Shown: piece after piece, positions 50,097-59,515 of the stretch
How the letters are laid out: each line of letters begins with the position of its first letter
Numbering within the stretch: position 1 is the first letter of the stretch
Notes under the pieces: model-generated
Database searches by the model: none
What the model was told of the DNA's origin: nothing
The model's input: only the letters and a program-made list of their open reading frames with translations
Position numbers and translations under genes: made by a program
DNA from: Pigmentiphaga humi
GTDB taxonomy: Bacteria > Pseudomonadota > Gammaproteobacteria > Burkholderiales > Burkholderiaceae_B
Length of the DNA stretch: 63,631 bases
Assembly: GCF_900606115.1 (NCBI RefSeq)
Contig: NZ_UWPJ01000013.1
Coordinates: forward strand, 1 to 63,631
Direction of reading: 5' to 3'

Positions 50097-50269
50097 AACT
50101 TGCGATCGTGCTTCGGGAGAAAAGGAAAAACCGTTAGGTTTGGGCTATTAGGAAAACACAAATCCCGGGTTTTGGCAAGTCAGCGCCGTTTCTCTGGCGA
50201 GACAGAATCGGGAGTTTTGAGGACGTATGCGCGGGGCATGAAGTCGTCGGGAACGGGATGCTCAACAAT

Positions 50270-50429
50270 GCCGGCCCGCCTCGGCGGGAACCGGTGAACC
50301 CCACAGCCTTGATGGCCGGATGGGCCACAAGCGCTTCACCAATAGCATTGTCGCCGTCCCGCACCATGGAGAACACGCCCTCGGGCAGGCCCCGCTCGCG
50401 TTCCACCTGCTGGATCGCCCGACCGCGCC
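50270..50429 (-). pseudogene. Fragment of an aldehyde dehydrogenase gene
   Basis: The minus-strand frame directly after the Bug stop encodes [19 protein letters not shown], then [24 protein letters not shown], a close match to the middle of NADP-dependent 2,5-dioxopentanoate (ketoglutarate semialdehyde) dehydrogenases, including the glycine-rich GFTGS cofactor loop. Everything before and after, including the catalytic Cys and Glu domains, is missing, and similarity stops near 50275. It is a remnant at the end of the catabolic operon. The rest of 50097-50269 is leuA upstream DNA with nothing further recognised. Confidence 0.75.
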
Positions 50430-51449
50430 TTAGTCCAGCTTGACGCCCAGAGGCTTGATGACGACGTCCCAGCGCTCATGCTCCGTGGTCAGGAAGTTGC
50501 CGAATTCCGCTCCGGTCATCCCGGACACGACCAGCCCCGCATCGCTGAGCTGCTTGCGCACCTCTGGCTTTTGAATCACGGTTTCCAGAGCTGACTTAAG
50601 CTTGTTGGCGATCTCGGGCGGCATGCCTTTGGGCCCCGCGATACCGAACCAGGTTTCTCCTACGACGCCAGGCACGAACTCATTCATCGTCGGAACATCG
50701 GGAAATTCAGGCAACCGCTTCGTGCCGCTGACAGCGAGCACACGCGCATTACCTGCCTTGACCTGCGCGAAGGCCACACCCAGGTTGTTGAACAGCACGT
50801 CGATCTGCCCACCGATCAGATCCGTCATCGCCGGACCGGTGCCTTTGTAAGGCACATGGGTCATCTCGATATGTGCCTTCTGTTTCAGCATTTCTCCGGT
50901 AAGAAAGCCGATGGAGCCTACCCCCGCGGAACCATAGTTCAAACGCCCGCCGGAAGCACGGGCAAGCTCCAGGAACTGCTTGAAGTCCTTGGCGGGGCTG
51001 TCTTTGCGGACAATGAAGCCGTTGGGCATCGTTCCCAGCAGCATGATGTGCGTGAAGTCCGACAACGGGTCGTAACTGATCCGTTGCCCCAGCAGCGGGC
51101 CGGTAGTGATCGCGGCGCCATTGCTCATCAAGAGGGTATATCCATCGGGCGCGGCCTTGGCCACAACGCCGGTCCCCAGAGTCGAGCCAACGCCGCCGCG
51201 GTTCTCCACCACCACCGGCTTGCCCAGGACCTGGCCGAGATGCTGGGCGACCACGCGCGCCATGAGATCAGTGGATCCCCCGGCGTTGTACGGCACGAGC
51301 AATGTCACAGGCCGCGCAGGATAGGGGGCTTGCGCGTGAACGGCAGGGGGGGCTGCGCCCAGCATGACGCACGCGACGCCGAGCAAGACTCGCCGATTGA
51401 ATGCGCGAGCGATCTTGGCATGCACCGATTGTCGGGCAGATGTTTTCAT
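50430..51449 (-). CDS. Bug/TctC-family solute-binding protein of the catabolic operon
   Basis: A 339-residue Bug protein with a long signal region (cleavage near AVHAQA, about residue 40). It has [85 protein letters not shown] and [14 protein letters not shown]. It lies 74 bp after the FAD monooxygenase at the 3' end of the IclR-controlled operon, so it most likely captures the pathway's substrate, expected to be an acid. Confidence 0.9.
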
Positions 51450-51523
51450 GAATCAGGTCCTCGAAAAGGAGAAGAAAGCTGCATTCGTATCGGCGGCGGG
51501 CAATCCGCCCGGCGCCAGGCTCG

Positions 51524-52735
51524 TCAGACGATGGAGGCGGATTCCCGCAGGCCTGCGATCATCGATGTTTCCAGCAGGTAGGCATAAGCCTTCTCAGGGT
51601 TCTCCGCCTTGAGTTTGAGATCACGCAGGATCTGCTGCCGCTTCTCCTTATCCCCCTCCTGCATCCGCGCCCGATTGCGTCCCGACTGCTCGAGCACATG
51701 TTTGATTGCGATCGGCCTGCGTTGCCGGTCATACAACTCCAACAGCGCCATGCTTTCGCCCGCGTAGATGCGCCGCAGCTTGTCGCTCAAGTTGAATGCG
51801 TCGTGTATGCCCCCGTTCATACCCATACCGCCGCTCGGGCTGTTGATGTGCGCCGCGTCGCCCGCCAGGGCAATTCTCCCGTGCACGTAGTTGTTCACCA
51901 CCCGCTGATGGATCCGGTACGGGCGGATCTCCATGACCCGGTAGGGCTGGTTCTGGGGCGCGATGAGCTGCAACTTGGCTTCGATGGACTGAGGTTCGAG
52001 TGCCTCTTCGAGCGACTCGCCCTCCCATGGATACAGACTGACGCGCCAGCGGTTCACCAGCTTCAACAAGCTGAAGGTCCCTTGTTCCGACCAGCAATAG
52101 TTGACGTTGGAAAGGTCCGGGATATGGCGCTTGAAATCCGTATCGGTCAGTACAAGAATGGTCGCTTCGGGGAAGGTCAATCCTTCGAAGGGAAGATCCA
52201 GGAGTTGGCGTATGGCACTCCGAGCGCCATCGGCGGCGACGACGAAACTGCCTGACAAGATCTTCCGCTCCCCATCTGCCAACTCGACAGTTACCGAGGC
52301 CTCATCTGGGGTCTGGTCGACAGCCACGCACTTGTGGCCCATCAAAACCTCCACTCCCGGCAGCCTGGTCTTGATGTGATCGAGCATCAATTCCACCAAC
52401 CGCCACTGCTCGACCTGCAGGCGATACGGATGGGAAGTATCGTTGCGCAACGCAGACAGATCGAACTGCGCAAACTCTCCTGTTGCATGCATCCTGACCT
52501 GCCAGGTTGAACCCTTGAGGCCGGCATCGAGCAATTTCGACGTGATGCCGAACTCATCAAGCATGTCGAGCGTCGGCGGATGAAACGTCGACGCCTTCAA
52601 TGCGTGCGAGAGCGTGAGATCCGCCTCGACGACAGTGACGTCGATTCCCGCATGCCCCAACCGCGCCGCCGTCACCAATCCGACCGGACCCGCCCCGACG
52701 ACGATTACCCTTTTCTTCTCTGAAAGCAGACTCAC
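51524..52735 (-). CDS. Group-A FAD-dependent monooxygenase
   Basis: A 403-residue single-component flavin hydroxylase (PHBH/UbiH type). FAD binding starts at VIVVGAGPVGLVTAARLGHAGIDVTVVEAD, the DG motif is SGSFVVAADGARSAIRQLLDL, and the GD motif is GRIALAGDAAHINSPSGGMGMNGGIHDAFNLSDKL. I chose the GTG at 52735 because GAGG lies six bases before it; a GTG at 52747 is possible. Such enzymes hydroxylate phenols or hydroxypyridines, e.g. NicC on 6-hydroxynicotinate. In this operon it is the best candidate for the ring-activating step; the substrate is inferred only. Confidence 0.9.
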   Translation of the reverse strand: MSLLSEKKRVIVVGAGPVGLVTAARLGHAGIDVTVVEADLTLSHALKASTFHPPTLDMLDEFGITSKLLDAGLKGSTWQVRMHATGEFAQFDLSALRNDTSHPYRLQVEQWRLVELMLDHIKTRLPGVEVLMGHKCVAVDQTPDEASVTVELADGERKILSGSFVVAADGARSAIRQLLDLPFEGLTFPEATILVLTDTDFKRHIPDLSNVNYCWSEQGTFSLLKLVNRWRVSLYPWEGESLEEALEPQSIEAKLQLIAPQNQPYRVMEIRPYRIHQRVVNNYVHGRIALAGDAAHINSPSGGMGMNGGIHDAFNLSDKLRRIYAGESMALLELYDRQRRPIAIKHVLEQSGRNRARMQEGDKEKRQQILRDLKLKAENPEKAYAYLLETSMIAGLRESASIV

Positions 52736-52787
52736 CACACACCTCACTCTTATCGAATAATCCCTGTCCCGCCCATCTCTGTCCGGC

Positions 52788-53675
52788 TCAGGACGTCTCC
52801 ACGCTGGCAGCCTTAACGCCGCGAATGTTCACGAACCTCACCCCCGGCATGGCCGCCCAGCGACGCAAGCCGCGCTCGAACTCGCGGAACCGGTGCGGAA
52901 CGCCTACGATCCACGGGTGGACCGGCAGCGTCAGCAGTCGCGGCCCTTTGTTCAAGGCCTCGACACCCAGCCAGCGTATGGACTGCTCGATGTCATCGAC
53001 GTACTGCCCGGTGGACTGTCTGCATACCTGCAAACAATGCAAGTCGCTGGCGAAGTGCTGCCATGGCACACACAGCAGGCTGCCGCTGGCGCAGCGGATG
53101 CGAAAAGGCAGCTCGTCGTTGTTCAGGTCCAGGAGCGTGTCCAGACCGGCCCGGGCAAGGATGTCCAGCGTGTCGGGCGAGTGCGCGCCAGAGGGCGGAT
53201 GCCAGCCTTCCACTGCCAAACCCTGCTCCTCGACGATCTGCGCCAGCGCCTGGCGGACCATCTCTGCTTCCGCCGCGGGATCGCCGTATCCCGCGTGAAT
53301 CGACCCGGCATCCAGCCCTGAGGCAACCGCGCTGAAACCAGGGCGCCGCAGCCGCGTCAGTAGCGGTCCGATGTTTCGGCAGGATTGGGCATCGACCGAC
53401 CAGGTTGCGGCAGTGCCAGTAAGGTCGAGAAAATCGAGCAACCTCTCCAGGCCCTCCCGCTCGCCAACCTTGCGCTGTGACCAGTTCGCCAGGTCTGGAT
53501 AGGGTCGATCCAATCCGCCAGGCACTGGAAATGGCGGTTTGAATGACAGAGGAAACGATTGCAGCGTCACAATCAGGTGGATCGCCACTTGCACCGGCTC
53601 ACCCCATTGCAATGCTGGCGTCGACCTACTGTCCCGGTAATCGAACCAGGCGTGGTCCGCGTAGCCGTGAGTCAT
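52788..53675 (-). CDS. CE4/polysaccharide-deacetylase-like protein, degenerate metal site
   Basis: A 295-residue protein related to the PuuE-like branch of the polysaccharide deacetylase fold, which in catabolic operons acts on amides or ureides rather than sugars. It shares ANWSQRKVGEREGLERLLDFLDLTGTAATWSVDAQSC with its neighbour and has LTLPVHPWIVGVPHRFREFERGL near the end. The expected first metal motif (N-x-E/D-x) is LIVTLQS, and the mid-protein HG motif is SGLDAGSIHAGYGD, so the usual ligands are not all present. Start at 53675 overlaps the second CE4 gene (ATGA). It may be an inactive partner or have a changed site. Confidence 0.8.
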   Translation of the reverse strand: MTHGYADHAWFDYRDSRSTPALQWGEPVQVAIHLIVTLQSFPLSFKPPFPVPGGLDRPYPDLANWSQRKVGEREGLERLLDFLDLTGTAATWSVDAQSCRNIGPLLTRLRRPGFSAVASGLDAGSIHAGYGDPAAEAEMVRQALAQIVEEQGLAVEGWHPPSGAHSPDTLDILARAGLDTLLDLNNDELPFRIRCASGSLLCVPWQHFASDLHCLQVCRQSTGQYVDDIEQSIRWLGVEALNKGPRLLTLPVHPWIVGVPHRFREFERGLRRWAAMPGVRFVNIRGVKAASVETS

Positions 53676-54598
53676 GTGGACACTCCCGGCGCCGAGAGCG
53701 CATGAGCACCCGACGCATCCAGTTTCTGGTCGTAGTAATCCGCGATGGCGCGGGCCTGAGTAATCCAGACCATGTCCCGGCACGACTTCACATGCAGCAG
53801 GATCTGGTCGAGCGCCCAGATGTACTGGGGCATGCCGATCAGGTACGGATGCAGCGGCAGACCGACCACCTTGGGCTGGACCTCGCTATCCTTGAGCAGT
53901 TGATCGAACTGGGCCTTGAAACGCTCGACGTAGGCATGCGCGGACAAGCCGCCCACGACCACCGCGAAGAAGTCGTTCAATTCCGACGAATAGGGAATGG
54001 AGAGCAAGCGCGAATCTCCGACTGCGAGCGGCAGGACGGAATCCGCCGCTCCCAGGTCGAAGACATAATCCAGGCCGCATGCCACTGCGCCTTCCAGCGT
54101 CGAAACGTTATAGGTCAACGCAGGCGAAAGCAGGCCGCGCACCTTCGCACCCGAGAAGGCTGCAATCTCATTGCACGCTGCCTGCAGATGCTCACGCTCT
54201 TGGTCCGGCGTTTCGCCAAAGACATAGCGCGTGTTGTATTGGCCGTGGCAGAACAGCTCCCAACCACGATCCACGAAGGGCTGAACCACTTGAGGCAGAT
54301 GCTGGCACATGGCCGAGTTGAGCGAGACCGAGCCGCTCATGCCATGCTTATCGAAAAGCTCCAGGCAACGCCACACGCCGACGCGATTGCCGTAGTCCCG
54401 CCAGGACCAGTTCTGCATGTCGGGAAATGGACGCGGCCAGGGCGCGCGCGTTGCGTTCGGCTTGGGGTCGACCTCGTAATATTCGATATTCGGCGCCAGC
54501 CAGAATGCCAGCCGCTTTCCATCGGGCCATGCAAAATCGGGCGGCCGATGCGTTGCGGGCTGATGCGGCGCGAACAGCTTGCCATAGTCGATGCTCAT
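53672..54598 (-). CDS. CE4/PuuE-like hydrolase
   Basis: A 308-residue polysaccharide-deacetylase-family protein of the catabolic, PuuE-like type. It keeps the motifs its neighbour lacks: FWLAPNIEYYEVDP for the first metal/acid site, GWELFCHGQYNTRYVFGETP for the His motif, GLLSPALTYN, and VGLPLHPYLIGMPQYIWALDQIL for the last His. NWSWRDYGNRVGVWRCLELFDKHG is a family hallmark. Overlaps of four bases with both neighbours show coupling. Related enzymes hydrolyse allantoin, imides or similar cyclic amides; here it may open a ring or remove an amide. Confidence 0.85.
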   Translation of the reverse strand: MSIDYGKLFAPHQPATHRPPDFAWPDGKRLAFWLAPNIEYYEVDPKPNATRAPWPRPFPDMQNWSWRDYGNRVGVWRCLELFDKHGMSGSVSLNSAMCQHLPQVVQPFVDRGWELFCHGQYNTRYVFGETPDQEREHLQAACNEIAAFSGAKVRGLLSPALTYNVSTLEGAVACGLDYVFDLGAADSVLPLAVGDSRLLSIPYSSELNDFFAVVVGGLSAHAYVERFKAQFDQLLKDSEVQPKVVGLPLHPYLIGMPQYIWALDQILLHVKSCRDMVWITQARAIADYYDQKLDASGAHALSAPGVST

Positions 54599-55260
54599 GG
54601 CGCCCCCTTCAACCACGTCAATATCTCGGCAACCGGCAGCACGTCGGCATACTTGGCCTGCATGTCATAAAGACTGGCGAAGTGCGGCGACTCGTGTACG
54701 TCGGCGACGCACTCCTCCGCTACCAGCGTCAGAAAGCCGTTGGACAGGCTGTCGACGACCGTCGCGCGCACGCAGCCGGACGTCGACCCTCCGGTCACGA
54801 TGACGGTGTCGATGCGCTGGGCGACCAGGTAAGGCAGCAGATGCGTGCCATGAAATGCGGACGGCATCTTTTTGATTATTTGCAGGTCTCTCTCCGAATC
54901 GACCACGACACGCTCGTCCAGCAAGGCCCGGTCGGATCCGAATTTGATGTTCTGCAGGCTATCCGGCGTGTCGCTGCGCAGACCCCAGACGCCGCAATCG
55001 CTGCCGTCCGCCATATAGGCGAGCGAAGTCCAGACGACGGGCCAGCGCATGCGGCGCAGTTCAGCGGCCAGACGATTGATCTTCTGGATTTGGTCCGGGT
55101 CGCCGGCATAGGCAGTCGCGTAGCGATCGGTGCGCGTATAGGCGTTCTGCAGGTCGACGTTGAGCAGCGCCGCCCTGCTGCCGAAGCCGAATGGCTTGCG
55201 GCGCGGATTGCGCTTGAGGTCGGCATACATCTCGCGCGCAGTCATTTGAGAAGTTTGCAT
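54595..55260 (-). CDS. Isochorismatase-family amidohydrolase
   Basis: A 221-residue cysteine hydrolase of the isochorismatase superfamily, which includes N-carbamoylsarcosine amidase and maleamate amidohydrolase (NicF). The catalytic triad is visible: Asp in ALLNVDLQNAYT (about 36), Lys in IIKKMPSAFHGTHL (about 130) and Cys in VTGGSTSGCVRATVVDSLSNGF (about 162). It probably releases ammonia from an amide such as a maleamate derivative, feeding the maleate-isomerase-like enzyme next to it. This assignment is by analogy to the nicotinate pathway. Confidence 0.88.
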   Translation of the reverse strand: MQTSQMTAREMYADLKRNPRRKPFGFGSRAALLNVDLQNAYTRTDRYATAYAGDPDQIQKINRLAAELRRMRWPVVWTSLAYMADGSDCGVWGLRSDTPDSLQNIKFGSDRALLDERVVVDSERDLQIIKKMPSAFHGTHLLPYLVAQRIDTVIVTGGSTSGCVRATVVDSLSNGFLTLVAEECVADVHESPHFASLYDMQAKYADVLPVAEILTWLKGAP

Positions 55261-55305
55261 GCGATGTCTTGGTGAAAAAAGAAAAAGTTGATGTGGCAGC
55301 GATGG

Positions 55306-56109
55306 CTAGCGAATCGCGCCAGCGGGCGTCGAATGCAGCCATCCCGCATCGCGCGTGAACCAGTCCGCAGGAGAGACCGCTTGCGCACCGCCCGCCGCGA
55401 GCAAAGACCGGGCCAGGCAGAGCGTGGAGGACAGAATGGGCGGGCTGGCCAGCCGGCTTGAAGTGAGGATCCGTTGGATGACAGGCAGCGACGACAGGCC
55501 CGTACCGGTGATCAGGATCGGGGAGGTGGCGCGGCTCGCCACTTCGGCAAGCGTGTCCTCGACGTCCGACGGCGTAAGGGTGTAGATGGAATGAAAGCCA
55601 GGGTTGGGATTCTGGAGCTGGCAAACACCGGTCACCCTGAAGCCCATTTGCTGCCAATACTCCACGCAACGCTCGGTGATCGCCGCCGGGTAGGGAGATA
55701 CCAACTCCACACTGCGCGTCCCCAGCGCATCAAGTCCCGACTTCATCGCCTCGGCAGCCCGGATGAATTGCGTGCCGTAGCGCTCGCCAAGCCCGGAGAA
55801 TATGCGTGCCTCGTTCTCGCTACCTATGAAATAGGACGTGGACGAACATGCGACGCCAATGGCGTTCAGCGGCGTAGAACCGAAACTTTCGACCGCCTTT
55901 GCCAGCCGCTCGGGATGAAAATAGTCGCTGAGACGTTGCTGGATATCTCCGCCGTTGTCGGTTAGCCTCGTCGTGATAAAAAACGAAGGCTTGGACATCA
56001 GTACGGACAATTCCCACTCGGTGGCGAAATTGCCATAGGGAACCATGAGGCCATACAGACCATCCGGCGCATAAGGATGAGAAAATCGGGCAGTGTTTCC
56101 GTGAGTCAT
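55306..56109 (-). CDS. Asp/Glu racemase superfamily protein, maleate-isomerase-like
   Basis: A 267-residue protein of the Asp/Glu/hydantoin racemase fold, in the branch with maleate cis-trans isomerase (NicE) and arylmalonate decarboxylase. The two halves each bring a Cys: IGVACSSTSYFIG (about residue 88) and PILSSTLCLARSL (about 230). GDIQQRLSDYFHPERLAKAVESFG lies between strand and first Cys. With the amidase upstream it is expected to isomerise a maleate-type product to a fumarate or mesaconate type, which is inference from operon content. Confidence 0.82.
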   Translation of the reverse strand: MTHGNTARFSHPYAPDGLYGLMVPYGNFATEWELSVLMSKPSFFITTRLTDNGGDIQQRLSDYFHPERLAKAVESFGSTPLNAIGVACSSTSYFIGSENEARIFSGLGERYGTQFIRAAEAMKSGLDALGTRSVELVSPYPAAITERCVEYWQQMGFRVTGVCQLQNPNPGFHSIYTLTPSDVEDTLAEVASRATSPILITGTGLSSLPVIQRILTSSRLASPPILSSTLCLARSLLAAGGAQAVSPADWFTRDAGWLHSTPAGAIR

Positions 56110-56127
56110 CGTCTTTCTCGTGCGAAA

Positions 56128-57330
56128 TCAGTTCGTTTCCGGGCTCGAGGCCACGATCGAGCGGCGTGCCAGATCCTCGACCTGCTCAGGCGTATAGCCA
56201 AGCGAAGCCAGAATGGACGCGGTGTGCTCGCCACGCCGGGGGGGATGAAGGCGCAATCCGGGACGCTCGCCATCGAGCGCGATGGGCAGCAACGGAACCC
56301 GACCGGAGCCAGCCTCGCCATCGAGCCGGATATCGGCCAGGCCGCCCGAGCCGTTCAGATGCGGGTCATCCAGCAATTCGTGCGGCCGGGCAATGGGCGC
56401 GAATGGCAAGCCATGGCGCTCAAAGACTTCCGCGATGGCACCCGCGCTCATGGCGGCCAGGCGGTGGCGCAACTCTGGCAGCAGCGTGTCGCGGGCCTCT
56501 ACGCGCTGGTTGTTGGTTTCATAGCGCGCCTCGGCCTTGAGGTCATCGAATCCGAACGCATCGCAGAATATGCCCCACTGGGTGTCGCTGACGACTGCCA
56601 AAAAGATCTGCTCGCCACCTCGCACACTGAACACGTCGTAGATGCCCCATGCCGAGATACGGCTCGGCATCGGCGCAGCGGGTTTGCCCGTCACTTCGTA
56701 CTGCAGCATGTGCTGGGCAACCAGGAAGATATTGTTTTCGAACAGCGCGCTCTGAATATGCTGGCCCCGCCCGCTCCGGTCGCGTTCTCTAAGCGCAGCA
56801 ATGGCTCCCAACGCGCCGAACATTCCGCCCATGATGTCGTTGACGCTGCTGCCGGCACGCAATGGCCGGCCTTCCGGGCCGGTCATATAGGCGAGCCCGC
56901 CCATCATCTGCACAACCTCGTCCAGCGCGGTCCGCTTTTCGTAGGGCCCCGGCAGGAATCCCTTGTGGCTGACGTAGATCAGGCGCGGATGACGAGACGA
57001 CAGACTGGCATAGTCCAGTCCAAGCCGTTGCATGGTCGACGCCTTGAAGTTCTCGCTGACGATGTCCGCACTCTCGACCAGCCGCAGCGCGATGGCCATG
57101 CCATCCGGATGATGCAGATCCAGCGCGATGCTTTGCTTGTTCCGGTTGAAGGCGGGAAAGAACCCGGCGCCCGAACCCTTCAGATTGCGGGTGTTGTCTC
57201 CCTTCAGAGGCTCCACCTTGATGACATCGGCGCCCAGGTCGCCGAGTATCAGGCCGCAGGTCGGCCCCATGACCATATGGGTGAACTCTACGACCTTCAC
57301 ACCTGCCAGAGGCAGCACAGAGTCAGACAT
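56128..57330 (-). CDS. Class-III (CaiB/BaiF, formyl-CoA-transferase family) CoA transferase
   Basis: A 400-residue family-III CoA transferase. LAGVKVVEFTHMVMGPTCGLILGDLGADVIKVE is the hallmark N-terminus; FFPAFNRNKQSIALDLHHPDG and ENFKASTMQRLGLDY follow, with LDEVVQMMGGLAYMTGPEGRPLRAG in the nucleotide region. The usual catalytic Asp is expected shortly after residue 160, in SSVNDIMGGMFGALG. It overlaps the lyase gene by eight bases. Partners of this kind activate citramalate, itaconate or related acids, which the lyase then cleaves. Confidence 0.9.
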   Translation of the reverse strand: MSDSVLPLAGVKVVEFTHMVMGPTCGLILGDLGADVIKVEPLKGDNTRNLKGSGAGFFPAFNRNKQSIALDLHHPDGMAIALRLVESADIVSENFKASTMQRLGLDYASLSSRHPRLIYVSHKGFLPGPYEKRTALDEVVQMMGGLAYMTGPEGRPLRAGSSVNDIMGGMFGALGAIAALRERDRSGRGQHIQSALFENNIFLVAQHMLQYEVTGKPAAPMPSRISAWGIYDVFSVRGGEQIFLAVVSDTQWGIFCDAFGFDDLKAEARYETNNQRVEARDTLLPELRHRLAAMSAGAIAEVFERHGLPFAPIARPHELLDDPHLNGSGGLADIRLDGEAGSGRVPLLPIALDGERPGLRLHPPRRGEHTASILASLGYTPEQVEDLARRSIVASSPETN

Positions 57331-58249
57331 GGCTGCGCTCCTCGAATCCCAGCGGCAGCCCCGCTTCGGGCAACATTCCATATAGCGGAGTGTCTGGCAG
57401 GCTCGCGGACAGGACTTGTCGCGCCTCGAGCAACTTGTCGATATCGACGCCGGTACGAAGACCCATGGCCTCGAACATATAAACCAGGTCTTCGGTAACC
57501 ACGTTTCCCGAGGCGCCGGGCGCATAAGGACAACCGCCCAGCCCACCCAGGGAGCCGTCGAACGTCCGTACCCCGGCCTCAAGCGCCGCCAGGCAATTCG
57601 CCAAGCCCAGCCCACGCGTGTTGTGCATGTGGGCCGCGCCCGCCCGCGGACCGATGGCGGACCGCAACGAGCGGAACAAGTCCGATACCTGGCGGGGATT
57701 GGCATAACCAGCGGTGTCGGAAAGCCCGCAGCTCTGCGCACCGGCCCGGACCAGTTGCTCCGCCAGGCGCAAGACTTCGGCGGATGACACATTGCCTTGA
57801 AGCGTGCAGCCAAATGCGGTCGAGATGCCAACCTCGACTTCCATGTCCGGCGCCAGTTCGTCACGCAGTGCAACGATAGCCCTGACCTCCTCAACCATCT
57901 CGGCACGGCTCTTGCGCACATTCGCCAACGAATGGGCCTCGCTGGCCGATACCGGAACAGTCAACTTGTCGACACCGGCCTCGATGGCGGCGCGGGCGCC
58001 TCGGAGATTGGGCACCAATGCCGCCACCTCCAGCTCGGGAAGAGATTTGGCAAAGACCACCACTTCAGCCGTGTCCGCCAACTGCGGAAGCAGGTCGCGC
58101 CGCACGAACGACCCGACCTCGATCTCTCGAAGTCCCGCTGCCGCCAACGCAGCGATCCACTGCTTCTTGTTCGCCGTGGCCATCGACACAGAAAGCGATT
58201 GCAGGCCGTCTCTTGGCCCGACTTCGCTGATGACGACATCCGGTTTCAT
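57323..58249 (-). CDS. HMG-CoA-lyase-family aldol lyase
   Basis: A 308-residue member of the hydroxymethylglutaryl-CoA lyase family, a metal-dependent TIM barrel. EVGPRDGLQSL begins the barrel, AAGLREIEVGSFVRRDLLPQLADTAEV follows, and the metal site is in GAAHMHNTRGLGLANCLAAL. The HMGL signature is SLGGLGGCPYAPGASGNVVTEDL with the active-site Cys. It heads the operon, divergent from iclR. After the CoA transferase its product could be a citramalyl-CoA-like thioester split to acetyl-CoA and a keto acid; the exact substrate is not known. Confidence 0.9.
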   Translation of the reverse strand: MKPDVVISEVGPRDGLQSLSVSMATANKKQWIAALAAAGLREIEVGSFVRRDLLPQLADTAEVVVFAKSLPELEVAALVPNLRGARAAIEAGVDKLTVPVSASEAHSLANVRKSRAEMVEEVRAIVALRDELAPDMEVEVGISTAFGCTLQGNVSSAEVLRLAEQLVRAGAQSCGLSDTAGYANPRQVSDLFRSLRSAIGPRAGAAHMHNTRGLGLANCLAALEAGVRTFDGSLGGLGGCPYAPGASGNVVTEDLVYMFEAMGLRTGVDIDKLLEARQVLSASLPDTPLYGMLPEAGLPLGFEERSHV

Positions 58250-58251
58250 AT

Positions 58252-58289
58252 TTTCTATCTTATAGAAATCAATTTTCTAAGTTAGAAAA
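58252..58289. promoter_or_regulatory. Tandem IclR-type operators between lyase operon and iclR
   Basis: Two perfect palindromes: TTTCTAT-CTT-ATAGAAA (58252-58268) and TTTTCTAA-G-TTAGAAAA (58273-58289). Both contain TTTCTA...TAGAAA, and their centres are 21 bp apart, two helical turns. They lie just upstream of the lyase start (58249), well placed to repress that operon, with iclR divergent 75 bp away. Confidence 0.8.
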
Positions 58290-58363
58290 ATGGTAGCACA
58301 AGTGATGATCGTTAACATAGGGGTTGGTACTAAAATCGACAGTTACCGTCAGAACCTGCCCTC

Positions 58364-59095
58364 ATGCCCCGCAAAGCCCGTATCGATTCAATCGCCGATG
58401 AACAATCCAGCCCGCATGGAGTCGCCGCGGTCGACCGGGCTCTGACCCTTCTAGCCGCCTATCGGCAGGGGGATTGCGCACTTTCATTGAGCGAATTGGC
58501 GGCGCGCACGCGCCTGTACCCAAGTACCGTTTCGCGTCTGCTCTCGTCTCTGATGCACGCACGGCTGATCGAGCGCCTGGAAGACGGGCGCTACGGACTG
58601 GGGCTGGAAGTCATGCGCCTGTACTCGGTATTCAGCGCGTCGTTCTCGATGGGCCGGGTTGTCATGCCGGCGCTTACCTTACTGGTGGAGCAAAGTGGCG
58701 AAAGCGCTGCCTTTCATGTCGCCCACGGGGATCATCGGCTTTGTCTCTATCGTGTGGACTCACCTCACCCAGTGCGCGACCACACGCGTGCTGGCGAACT
58801 GCTGCCGCTGCACCAGGGATCGGGCGGCCGGGTCCTGACTGCCTACGCGGAGACAATGCCCGCGGATACCAGCGCCGAAGACCAGGCTTTGTACGAACAG
58901 ATACGCCAACGCGGATACTTCGGCGCAATCAACGACAGACTCAACGGCGTCGCGGGCATCTCGGCCCCGGTCTTCAAAAGCGACGGCTCGCTGGCAGGGG
59001 CGGTCACGCTGACCATGCCTAGCGACCGCTACGATGATCGATACATACCGATGGTCAGAGCAGCCGCCGAGGGCTTGAGCAAGCAGATCCCGTAG
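58364..59095 (+). CDS. IclR-family transcriptional regulator
   Basis: A 243-residue IclR regulator. Helix-turn-helix at about 20-75: AVDRALTLLAAYRQGDCALSLSELAARTRLYPSTVSRLLSSLMHARLIER. The effector-binding domain has GESAAFHVAHGDHRLCLYRVDSPHPVRD, GELLPLHQGSGGRVLTAYA and RGYFGAINDRLNGVAGISAPVF. Divergent from the catabolic operon, with two palindromes in the gap, it most likely senses a pathway intermediate. Confidence 0.93.
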   Translation: MPRKARIDSIADEQSSPHGVAAVDRALTLLAAYRQGDCALSLSELAARTRLYPSTVSRLLSSLMHARLIERLEDGRYGLGLEVMRLYSVFSASFSMGRVVMPALTLLVEQSGESAAFHVAHGDHRLCLYRVDSPHPVRDHTRAGELLPLHQGSGGRVLTAYAETMPADTSAEDQALYEQIRQRGYFGAINDRLNGVAGISAPVFKSDGSLAGAVTLTMPSDRYDDRYIPMVRAAAEGLSKQIP

Positions 59096-59207
59096 GATCC
59101 AAACGGCAGAAGCGCCGTGCCCATTCCCCCTCCCGGGTAAATCCGGGATATCTGCGCCGCCACGGCGGGTCCACCATCGTCGTGTATAAACGACGAGTGA
59201 GACAGCC

Positions 59208-59515
59208 GTGTCGAGCTACCGCGCCCTTTATACGCGTTCTATCGACGACCCGGCATCGTTCTGGACCGAGCAGGCCGCCCTGGTGGACTGGTAGACTCCC
59301 CCCGCCCAGGTGCCTGGACGACTCCCGCCTGCCCTTCGCCCACGGATTCTGGGGTGGGCGCACCAATCTCTGCCATAACGCGGTGGACCGGCACCTGGCG
59401 GCGCGTGCCGACCAGCCGACGCTGGTGCATGTCTCCACAGAAACCGGCAGCGAGCGCACCTATACCTACGCGCAGCTACACGACGAGGTCAGCCGCATGG
59501 CCGCCGCCATGCCAC
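59208..59515 (+). pseudogene. 5' remnant of propionyl-CoA synthetase (prpE-like)
   Basis: From the GTG at 59208 the frame encodes [20 protein letters not shown] then QAALVDW, the start of PrpE, and stops at TAG 59292. In another frame the protein resumes as [34 protein letters not shown] then [24 protein letters not shown], again PrpE-like, before similarity ends at about 59515 where the YnfA gene begins. The [12 protein letters not shown]-like core is recognisable. The ATP/CoA domains are absent. A perfect hairpin, TCGTCGT/ACGACGA (59177-59196), lies just upstream. The gap 59096-59524 holds nothing else that I can support. Confidence 0.8.

Follow-up and report, generated by a model that had tools for sequence, protein, structure and literature searches.

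What is known of N-heterocycle breakdown in bacteria concerns mainly ring-cleaving dioxygenases, with a few hydrolases besides. In nicotinate breakdown by the fungus Aspergillus nidulans, the ring is opened by the cyclic imidase HxnM, which is related to PgdA/PuuE and has the CE4-type HpPgdA (PDB 3qbu) as its nearest structural relative, and an amidase acts next (PMC9304392). Here we analyze a 63,631-nt stretch of the Pigmentiphaga humi genome (contig NZ_UWPJ01000013.1, positions 1 to 63,631; referred to below as the window) containing an eight-gene operon beside an IclR-family regulator. The operon encodes a PuuE-like CE4 protein (CE4a), its degenerate partner (CE4b), an isochorismatase-family amidase (ISO), a group A FAD monooxygenase (FMO), a member of the arylmalonate decarboxylase/maleate isomerase superfamily (RAC), a class III CoA transferase, an HMG-CoA-lyase family lyase (HMGL) and a Bug/TctC solute-binding protein (Bug). 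Judging from sequence, there is about an even chance that this operon represents a catabolic route for an N-heterocyclic acid or a cyclic imide, apparently acquired and probably IclR-controlled. Its composition is probably undescribed, the enzyme families themselves being known; our searches of the open-licence literature turned up no such cluster, a description elsewhere being possible.

A preliminary description of this DNA had listed eight tightly packed minus-strand genes, several of them overlapping and none encoding a dioxygenase, and these points are borne out. All eight open reading frames (ORFs) are in place between 50430 and 58249 (see the table below); the intergenic gaps in transcription order are -8, 18, 45, -4, -4, 40 and 74 bp (i.e., three overlaps of 8, 4 and 4 bp), and neither the ORF list nor these gaps, the largest being 74 bp, leave room in the operon for a further enzyme gene such as a dioxygenase. 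Chance ORFs are excluded because GC content at third codon positions is 0.71-0.79 across all nine genes and relatives were found for every operon gene. The Pfam families of the operon and its regulator are TctC, FAD_binding_3, Polysacc_deac_1 (PF01522, matched by CE4a only, CE4b being without any Pfam match), Isochorismatase, Amdase, CoA_transf_3, HMGL-like and IclR. Promoter-like and terminator-like sites were not above chance (1 vs. 2.4 and 2 vs. 6.9 in shuffles, respectively). Overall, the eight genes form a compact, IclR-flanked, catabolic-looking operon.

Features of the operon region, with positions in the window and the basis of each assignment
Feature	Position	Strand	Basis
HMGL, HMG-CoA-lyase family lyase, operon gene 1	57323..58249	-	NCBIfam PRK05692; PDB 6nds
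Class III (CaiB) CoA transferase	56128..57330	-	PF02515, 354 bits
RAC, arylmalonate-decarboxylase/maleate-isomerase superfamily	55306..56109	-	PF17645, 34.7 bits; cysteine positions
ISO, isochorismatase-family amidase	54595..55260	-	PF00857, 95 bits; PDB 26st
CE4a, PuuE-like hydrolase with family motif residues	53672..54598	-	NCBIfam PuuE; PDB 3s6o, 3cl6; motifs
CE4b, degenerate PuuE-like partner	52788..53675	-	45-row CE4 alignment; Foldseek on model
FMO, group A FAD monooxygenase	51524..52747	-	PF01494, 201 bits; PDB 7da9, 6ain; tree
Bug/TctC solute-binding protein	50430..51449	-	PF03401, 228.8 bits
IclR-family regulator, divergent from operon	58364..59095	+	PF01614, PF09339
Aldehyde dehydrogenase remnant, downstream of Bug	50263..50415	-	51 residues match HpaE and other aldehyde dehydrogenase models
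Lower-GC block: operon, IclR and aldehyde dehydrogenase remnant	50123..59130		alignment of flanks to relatives; GC
Palindrome pair beside HMGL start codon	58250..58291		pattern counts in window and genome

The ISO-CE4a-CE4b core of the operon recurs in scattered Pseudomonadota. CE4a was matched at E of 1e-58 or lower in 15 of the 268 genomes screened in the family, in 10 genomes of a 399-genome sample of the order and in 9 of a 398-genome sample of the phylum; each figure includes the own genome, and none of the 10 other genomes of the genus within the family sample has such a match. We annotated 38 CE4 loci, not counting the window, against our own set of named proteins, accepting matches down to 70 bits; two of them (L111 and L118) hold weaker relatives, and some contigs are short. 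ISO is present in 34 of these loci and 35 have at least two CE4 genes; the recurring partners include LeuC (21), LeuD (20), an isocitrate-lyase-family lyase (20), an FAD reductase (15), a CoA transferase (9, four of which, at L023, L048, L110 and L112, are at least 52% identical to the window protein), a PrpD-like protein (9) and HMGL (6). The HMGL proteins of the latter six loci are 54-59% identical to that of the window (another L110 HMGL, 38%), and in five of the six HMGL stands beside LeuCD. At seven control loci with CE4 paralogs, the same annotation revealed no LeuC, LeuD, lyase, HMGL or second CE4, and a PrpD-like and a tautomerase-like gene in one locus each. The core is marked by the CE4 pair together with hydratase-lyase partners, ISO beside CE4 being a more general arrangement. 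Since LeuCD enzymes act on cis-vicinal dicarboxylates, the amidase product at the LeuCD-bearing core loci is probably of this kind. The lyase of L048 has carboxyvinyl-carboxyphosphonate phosphorylmutase as its best match, followed by structures of methylisocitrate lyase, petal death protein and 2,3-dimethylmalate lyase. The core is carried, among others, by plasmids of Burkholderia plantarii, Comamonas endophytica, Acidiphilium multivorum JZ-6 and Sphingomonas sp. JE1, and we met its members under generic family names only. The exact eight-gene order, a search for which had been suggested at the outset, was seen in no other locus read. A tautomerase-like protein accompanies ISO-CE4a-CE4b at L055 (where it matches DUF4440 in its second half), L056, L057 and L160, and the CE4 cluster of L049, inspected by eye, adjoins two related amidohydrolase-2-like genes and, farther on, an N-carbamoyl-amino-acid-hydrolase-like gene.

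The two CE4 proteins of the core appear to differ in function. CE4a scores 92.9 bits against the NCBIfam PuuE model (cut-off 424.6) and matches PDB entries 3s6o (E 4e-21), PuuE 3cl6 (E 2e-18) and 3qbu, and CE4b gives a weak 31.0 bits (E 1.3e-7), also under the cut-off. We aligned 45 CE4 rows, 43 of which come from the collected loci and two from the window itself; 24 rows, including CE4a with its NIE, DYGNR and CHG, keep the N-x-E, DYGNR and His-Gly motifs, which are presumably catalytic as in the family; the remaining 21, assigned by eye to a CE4b class, have Gln for Glu in 14 cases and Glu in 7, and keep His in most. None of the three motifs survives in the window CE4b (Q for E, S for H and KVGER for DYGNR), a triple loss present in no other aligned row, with the cut row of L055 not covering the His. 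The best Foldseek matches of a moderate-confidence CE4b model (three-sequence alignment, mean pLDDT 64) are 3s6o, 3rxz and 3cl6, suggesting that the PuuE/CE4 fold is kept. Because the motifs are lost while this fold is kept, CE4b is probably a non-catalytic partner and not a second hydrolase. Thus, of the pair of CE4/PuuE-like hydrolases originally proposed, both are PuuE/CE4-like, but the motif residues are kept in CE4a only. A search of genome contigs with CE4b, the most divergent protein, led to a single distant locus.

A second recurring pair is formed by FMO and the window type of RAC. When 36 FMOs were placed in a tree, that of the window grouped in a seven-member clade (support 100/100), six members of which have the window RAC type nearby and four of which (the window, L126, L070 and L021) also hold ISO-CE4a-CE4b. 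The nearest anatomical relative seen is L126, with FMO, RAC, ISO, CE4a, CE4b and a lyase, and without HMGL. More broadly, a RAC-type gene was found in 11 of 27 annotated FMO loci. Among solved structures, FMO is closest in sequence to the hydroxypyridine hydroxylase HspB (7da9, E 1.5e-53). The window genome has a second FMO cluster, L113 (G000:C27:77000-96500), comprising lyase, LeuD, LeuC, GntR, Bug, RAC, aldehyde dehydrogenase and FMO genes, the FMO and Bug of which are, respectively, 67% and 62% identical to those of the window. One Roseomonas and one Thioclava plasmid carry FMO and RAC-type genes together with isochorismatase-family genes and with metallo-beta-lactamase-fold or amidohydrolase genes, which suggests that the place of CE4 can be filled by differing hydrolases. 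Yet another locus of the window genome, L026 (G000:C22:420000-438000), contains GntR, RAC, Bug, a longer FMO, an isochorismatase and a single CE4.

The cysteine layout of RAC bears directly on its function. Maleate isomerase works with two Cys residues, a nucleophile and a proton-transfer residue; in native arylmalonate decarboxylase the Cys used is C188, and variants engineered to have C74 and no C188 still decarboxylate (PMC12576825). In the window RAC type (7 rows), the second cysteine position is non-Cys in 7/7 and the first is Cys in 6/7, the window protein keeping the first and having Gly at the C188 position; both cysteines are present in three other rows (L024, L117 and L121b), and both are missing from a further FMO-linked type (8 rows). 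With the second cysteine missing, we rejected an ordinary maleate isomerase, and the "maleate-isomerase-like" role given to RAC in the preliminary description was not upheld. The Pfam Amdase assignment places RAC in the superfamily, and against the curated arylmalonate decarboxylase family it reaches 30.1 of the 225-bit cut-off; by analogy with the engineered single-cysteine variants, RAC may possibly work as a decarboxylase. A RAC structure predicted without an alignment had a mean pLDDT of 40 and was not used. The RAC type lacking both cysteines stands beside FMOs at L114, L118, L121, L127, L128, L129, L141 and L144, the L121 protein being annotated as arylmalonate decarboxylase.

The CoA end of the pathway is suggested at the level of protein families. 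HMGL scores 283.3 bits against NCBIfam PRK05692 (cut-off 246), matches PDB 6nds (E 1.2e-64) and carries the conserved GGCP loop, GGCPYAPGASGN; by score and loop it is a member of the HMG-CoA lyase family. The best NCBIfam match of the CoA transferase is succinate--glutarate CoA-transferase (230.9 bits, under the cut-off of 750), and with 184.8 of 700 bits it does not reach the cut-off of the mesaconate CoA-transferase model. The closest PDB match of ISO is N-carbamoylsarcosine amidohydrolase (26st, E 3e-34), with 3ot4/3uao at E 1.3e-23, 3uao being the Bordetella maleamate amidase.

Upstream of the operon, two perfect palindromes, TTTCTATCTTATAGAAA and TTTCTAAGTTAGAAA, occur in 20-nt copies 22 bp apart. 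The pattern is found twice in the window (0.00 expected) and at those two sites only in the 5.1-Mb genome, the reversed control yielding 0, and it has no match in the 161 loci compared. Tandem palindromes two helical turns apart would fit an IclR-type operator; the two copies are a possible IclR operator pair, and the operon is probably IclR-controlled.

Operon and regulator sit in a ~9.0-kb block, apparently horizontally acquired, between leuA and a remnant of prpE (propionate-CoA ligase). Its flanks align with the corresponding leuA-prpE region in three genomes of the same genus (L164-L166, taken from the 10 others in the genus sample), where the order is leuA, intact prpE, other genes, ynfA and metH, and where the block is absent at the leuA-prpE site. 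Homology to the region upstream of leuA ends near 50122 and restarts near 59131 at the prpE start, the three relatives together placing the approximate block ends at 50111-50122 (left) and 59120-59135 (right). The 5' remnant of prpE (59356-59511, 52 residues matching PrpE) is directly followed by the ynfA region, the genes that separate prpE from ynfA in L164-L166 not being found there. The block has a GC content of 0.614 vs. 0.671 for the rest of the window, and the values for 82 overlapping 9-kb windows on its left side lie between 0.659 and 0.687. The aldehyde dehydrogenase remnant (best E 7e-9) resembles the aldehyde dehydrogenase of the L113 cluster (50% over 36 residues), and from its position beside Bug another gene may have been lost. 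No target-site duplication was found at the block ends, with only 7-8 bp matches, and no tRNA was found in the window, so that neither points to how the block arrived; integrases were not looked for beyond the genes named. A search of a plasmid collection for near-identical DNA returned one record, whose match lies over the CoA transferase and amounts to 11% of the query.

Combining these observations, we tentatively propose a dioxygenase-free route that would employ a flavin hydroxylase, a CE4 pair of active imidase and pseudoenzyme, an amidase and a decarboxylase that needs no cofactor and has a single cysteine to convert a substituted N-heterocycle or imide to a branched dicarboxylate for CoA cleavage; in this full detail the proposal is rather doubtful. 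In the catabolic route given about an even chance above, Bug would bind the carboxylated substrate, which may be a pyridine, or methylated, for uptake. FMO would hydroxylate the ring, one tautomer of the product offering a lactam or imide bond open to hydrolysis, CE4a, partnered by the non-catalytic CE4b, would open the ring at C-N, and ISO would hydrolyse the resulting amide to ammonia and a substituted cis-dicarboxylate, the order of the FMO, CE4 and ISO steps being a guess. RAC could then decarboxylate (or isomerise) this product, the CoA transferase would load CoA, and HMGL would split a beta-hydroxyacyl-CoA into acetyl-CoA and an oxo acid. The hydrolytic, CE4-type ring opening put forward in the preliminary description is plausible in view of the fungal HxnM (PMC9304392). 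Its endgame of acetyl-CoA and pyruvate holds up in part: a branched-dicarboxylate end fits the relatives with LeuCD and isocitrate-lyase-family lyase, but mesaconate could not be taken to citramalyl-CoA by the operon alone because it has no hydratase. The hydratase needed before HMGL would have to come from outside the operon, possibly from LeuCD of L113 in the same genome. That alkyl-substituted maleimides from haem or chlorophyll breakdown are the natural substrates of the wider core seems highly improbable.

Several observations weigh against this route or against the unity of its parts. Window FMO is almost equally close to HspB and to PnpA (6ain, E 6e-53), a nitrophenol hydroxylase. FMO occurs in 5 and RAC in 3 of the 38 CE4 loci, a rarity by which they are not part of the core; no RAC gene was found in 16 of the 27 FMO loci, and the eight FMO-linked RAC rows lacking both cysteines weaken a cysteine-based mechanism for FMO partners generally, this type being dispersed over the FMO tree without significant clustering (an equally low value in 56 of 500 shuffles). 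ISO is present at three of the seven control CE4 loci, so that ISO-CE4 pairing alone is not specific, and one of these controls, L026, has both FMO and RAC. The nearest relatives found for the window HMGL and CoA transferase (69-70%) are at L124, on a Comamonadaceae plasmid (CP099604.1), with IclR, an amidohydrolase and Bug; since no ISO or CE4 is annotated nearby, the HMGL-CoA transferase module may be generic.

The proximity of ISO to an N-carbamoyl amidase could, moreover, mean a ureide ring. A hydantoin- or pyrimidine-like ring would then be processed by an allantoinase-like CE4a, ISO as N-carbamoyl amidohydrolase and FMO as a hydroxylase of the purine or pyrimidine type, and its carbon skeleton would enter the CoA steps. 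This agrees with the PuuE-type relatives of CE4a and with a Microbacterium plasmid on which CE4 is paired with a gene annotated as N-carbamoylsarcosine amidohydrolase, but CE4a falls far below the PuuE cut-off, the HpxO model gives FMO 84 bits vs. 182 for the best FMO model, LeuCD and lyase partners would better fit N-free dicarboxylates, and no aminotransferase was recognised among the recurring neighbour families; we regard a ureide substrate as unlikely. The same LeuC and lyase partners, the L048 lyase matches included, speak for a substituted maleimide or succinimide as the starting ring, with no pyridine involved: CE4a and ISO would yield a substituted maleate to be cleaved as a branched malate, FMO acting earlier on a pyrrole-like or phenolic precursor. 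No FMO is shown in 33 of the 38 CE4 loci (some on short contigs), as such a scheme would have it, but the window operon is without LeuCD and we recognised in the clusters no enzyme with an established specificity for imides or pyrroles; this scheme, too, is unlikely. Quite improbable, finally, is a maleamate route of the nicotinate type, in which CE4 would replace the deformylase, ISO and RAC would act as maleamate amidase and maleate isomerase, and the ring would be cleaved by FMO or an unlinked dioxygenase. CE4 enzymes are N-deacylases, HspB, to which FMO is near, yields 2,5-dihydroxypyridine, and ISO belongs to the isochorismatase family like maleamate amidase, yet 26st is nearer to it than 3ot4/3uao; the missing second cysteine of RAC and the absence of a dioxygenase gene from the operon both argue against it, and fumarate needs neither CoA transferase nor lyase.

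Returning to the hydrolytic route preferred here, the recurrence of a scattered, sometimes plasmid-borne core whose proteins, where they bear a name, are called isochorismatase or polysaccharide deacetylase family members only suggests that a class of hydrolytic enzymes for ring or imide opening is being misnamed, and the intact and degenerate CE4 proteins may form a functional unit. The proposal can be tested, its modules being well defined and the pair of palindromes beside the divergent regulator being unique, and an inducer would point to the substrate.

Compared with described systems, the operon shares with the bacterial nicotinate (nic) maleamate pathway a group A FAD monooxygenase, an isochorismatase-family amidase and a maleate isomerase superfamily member. 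It differs in having neither a dioxygenase nor an alpha/beta-hydrolase deformylase, in the lack of the isomerase cysteine pair in RAC and in the addition of two CE4 proteins, a CoA transferase and HMGL; the operon has neither an ORF for a 2,5-dihydroxypyridine dioxygenase (NicX) nor a gap that could hold one, a search that did not extend to other parts of the genome. The arylmalonate decarboxylase (AMDase) of Bordetella bronchiseptica has the Amdase domain in common with RAC, the cysteine layout of which is like that of the G74C/C188S and G74C/C188G variants, but its native C188 is absent from RAC (PMC12576825), as is a family-level score. PuuE allantoinase (3cl6) resembles CE4a in fold and motif residues and differs by the score given above. 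A riboflavin/lumichrome pathway was considered and ruled out, the terms deacetylase, isochorismatase and CoA each occurring 0 times in the main text of its description (PMC12746152). The core plasmids of Burkholderia plantarii (L108), Acidiphilium multivorum JZ-6 (L110) and Sphingomonas sp. JE1 (L112) have the ISO-CE4a-CE4b order and, in the case of L110 and L112, HMGL (56-59%) and CoA transferase (52-56%) related to those of the window, but all three differ by LeuCD and an FAD reductase and/or lyase, and window-type FMO and RAC were not found on them; their annotation gives generic family names only. With regard to the hxn pathway of Aspergillus nidulans, the differences are that HxnN is an unrelated FAAH-like amidase, that reductive steps precede ring opening and that CE4b, CoA transferase and HMGL are not named in the available text (PMC9304392). 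CE4a nevertheless shows the CE4 fold and motif residues of an HxnM-type enzyme, compared by family and PDB matches and not to HxnM itself, and, with its ring hydroxylations, hydrolytic C-N opening by HxnM and subsequent amidase step (PMC9304392), the hxn pathway is the closest chemical precedent found for the route considered here.

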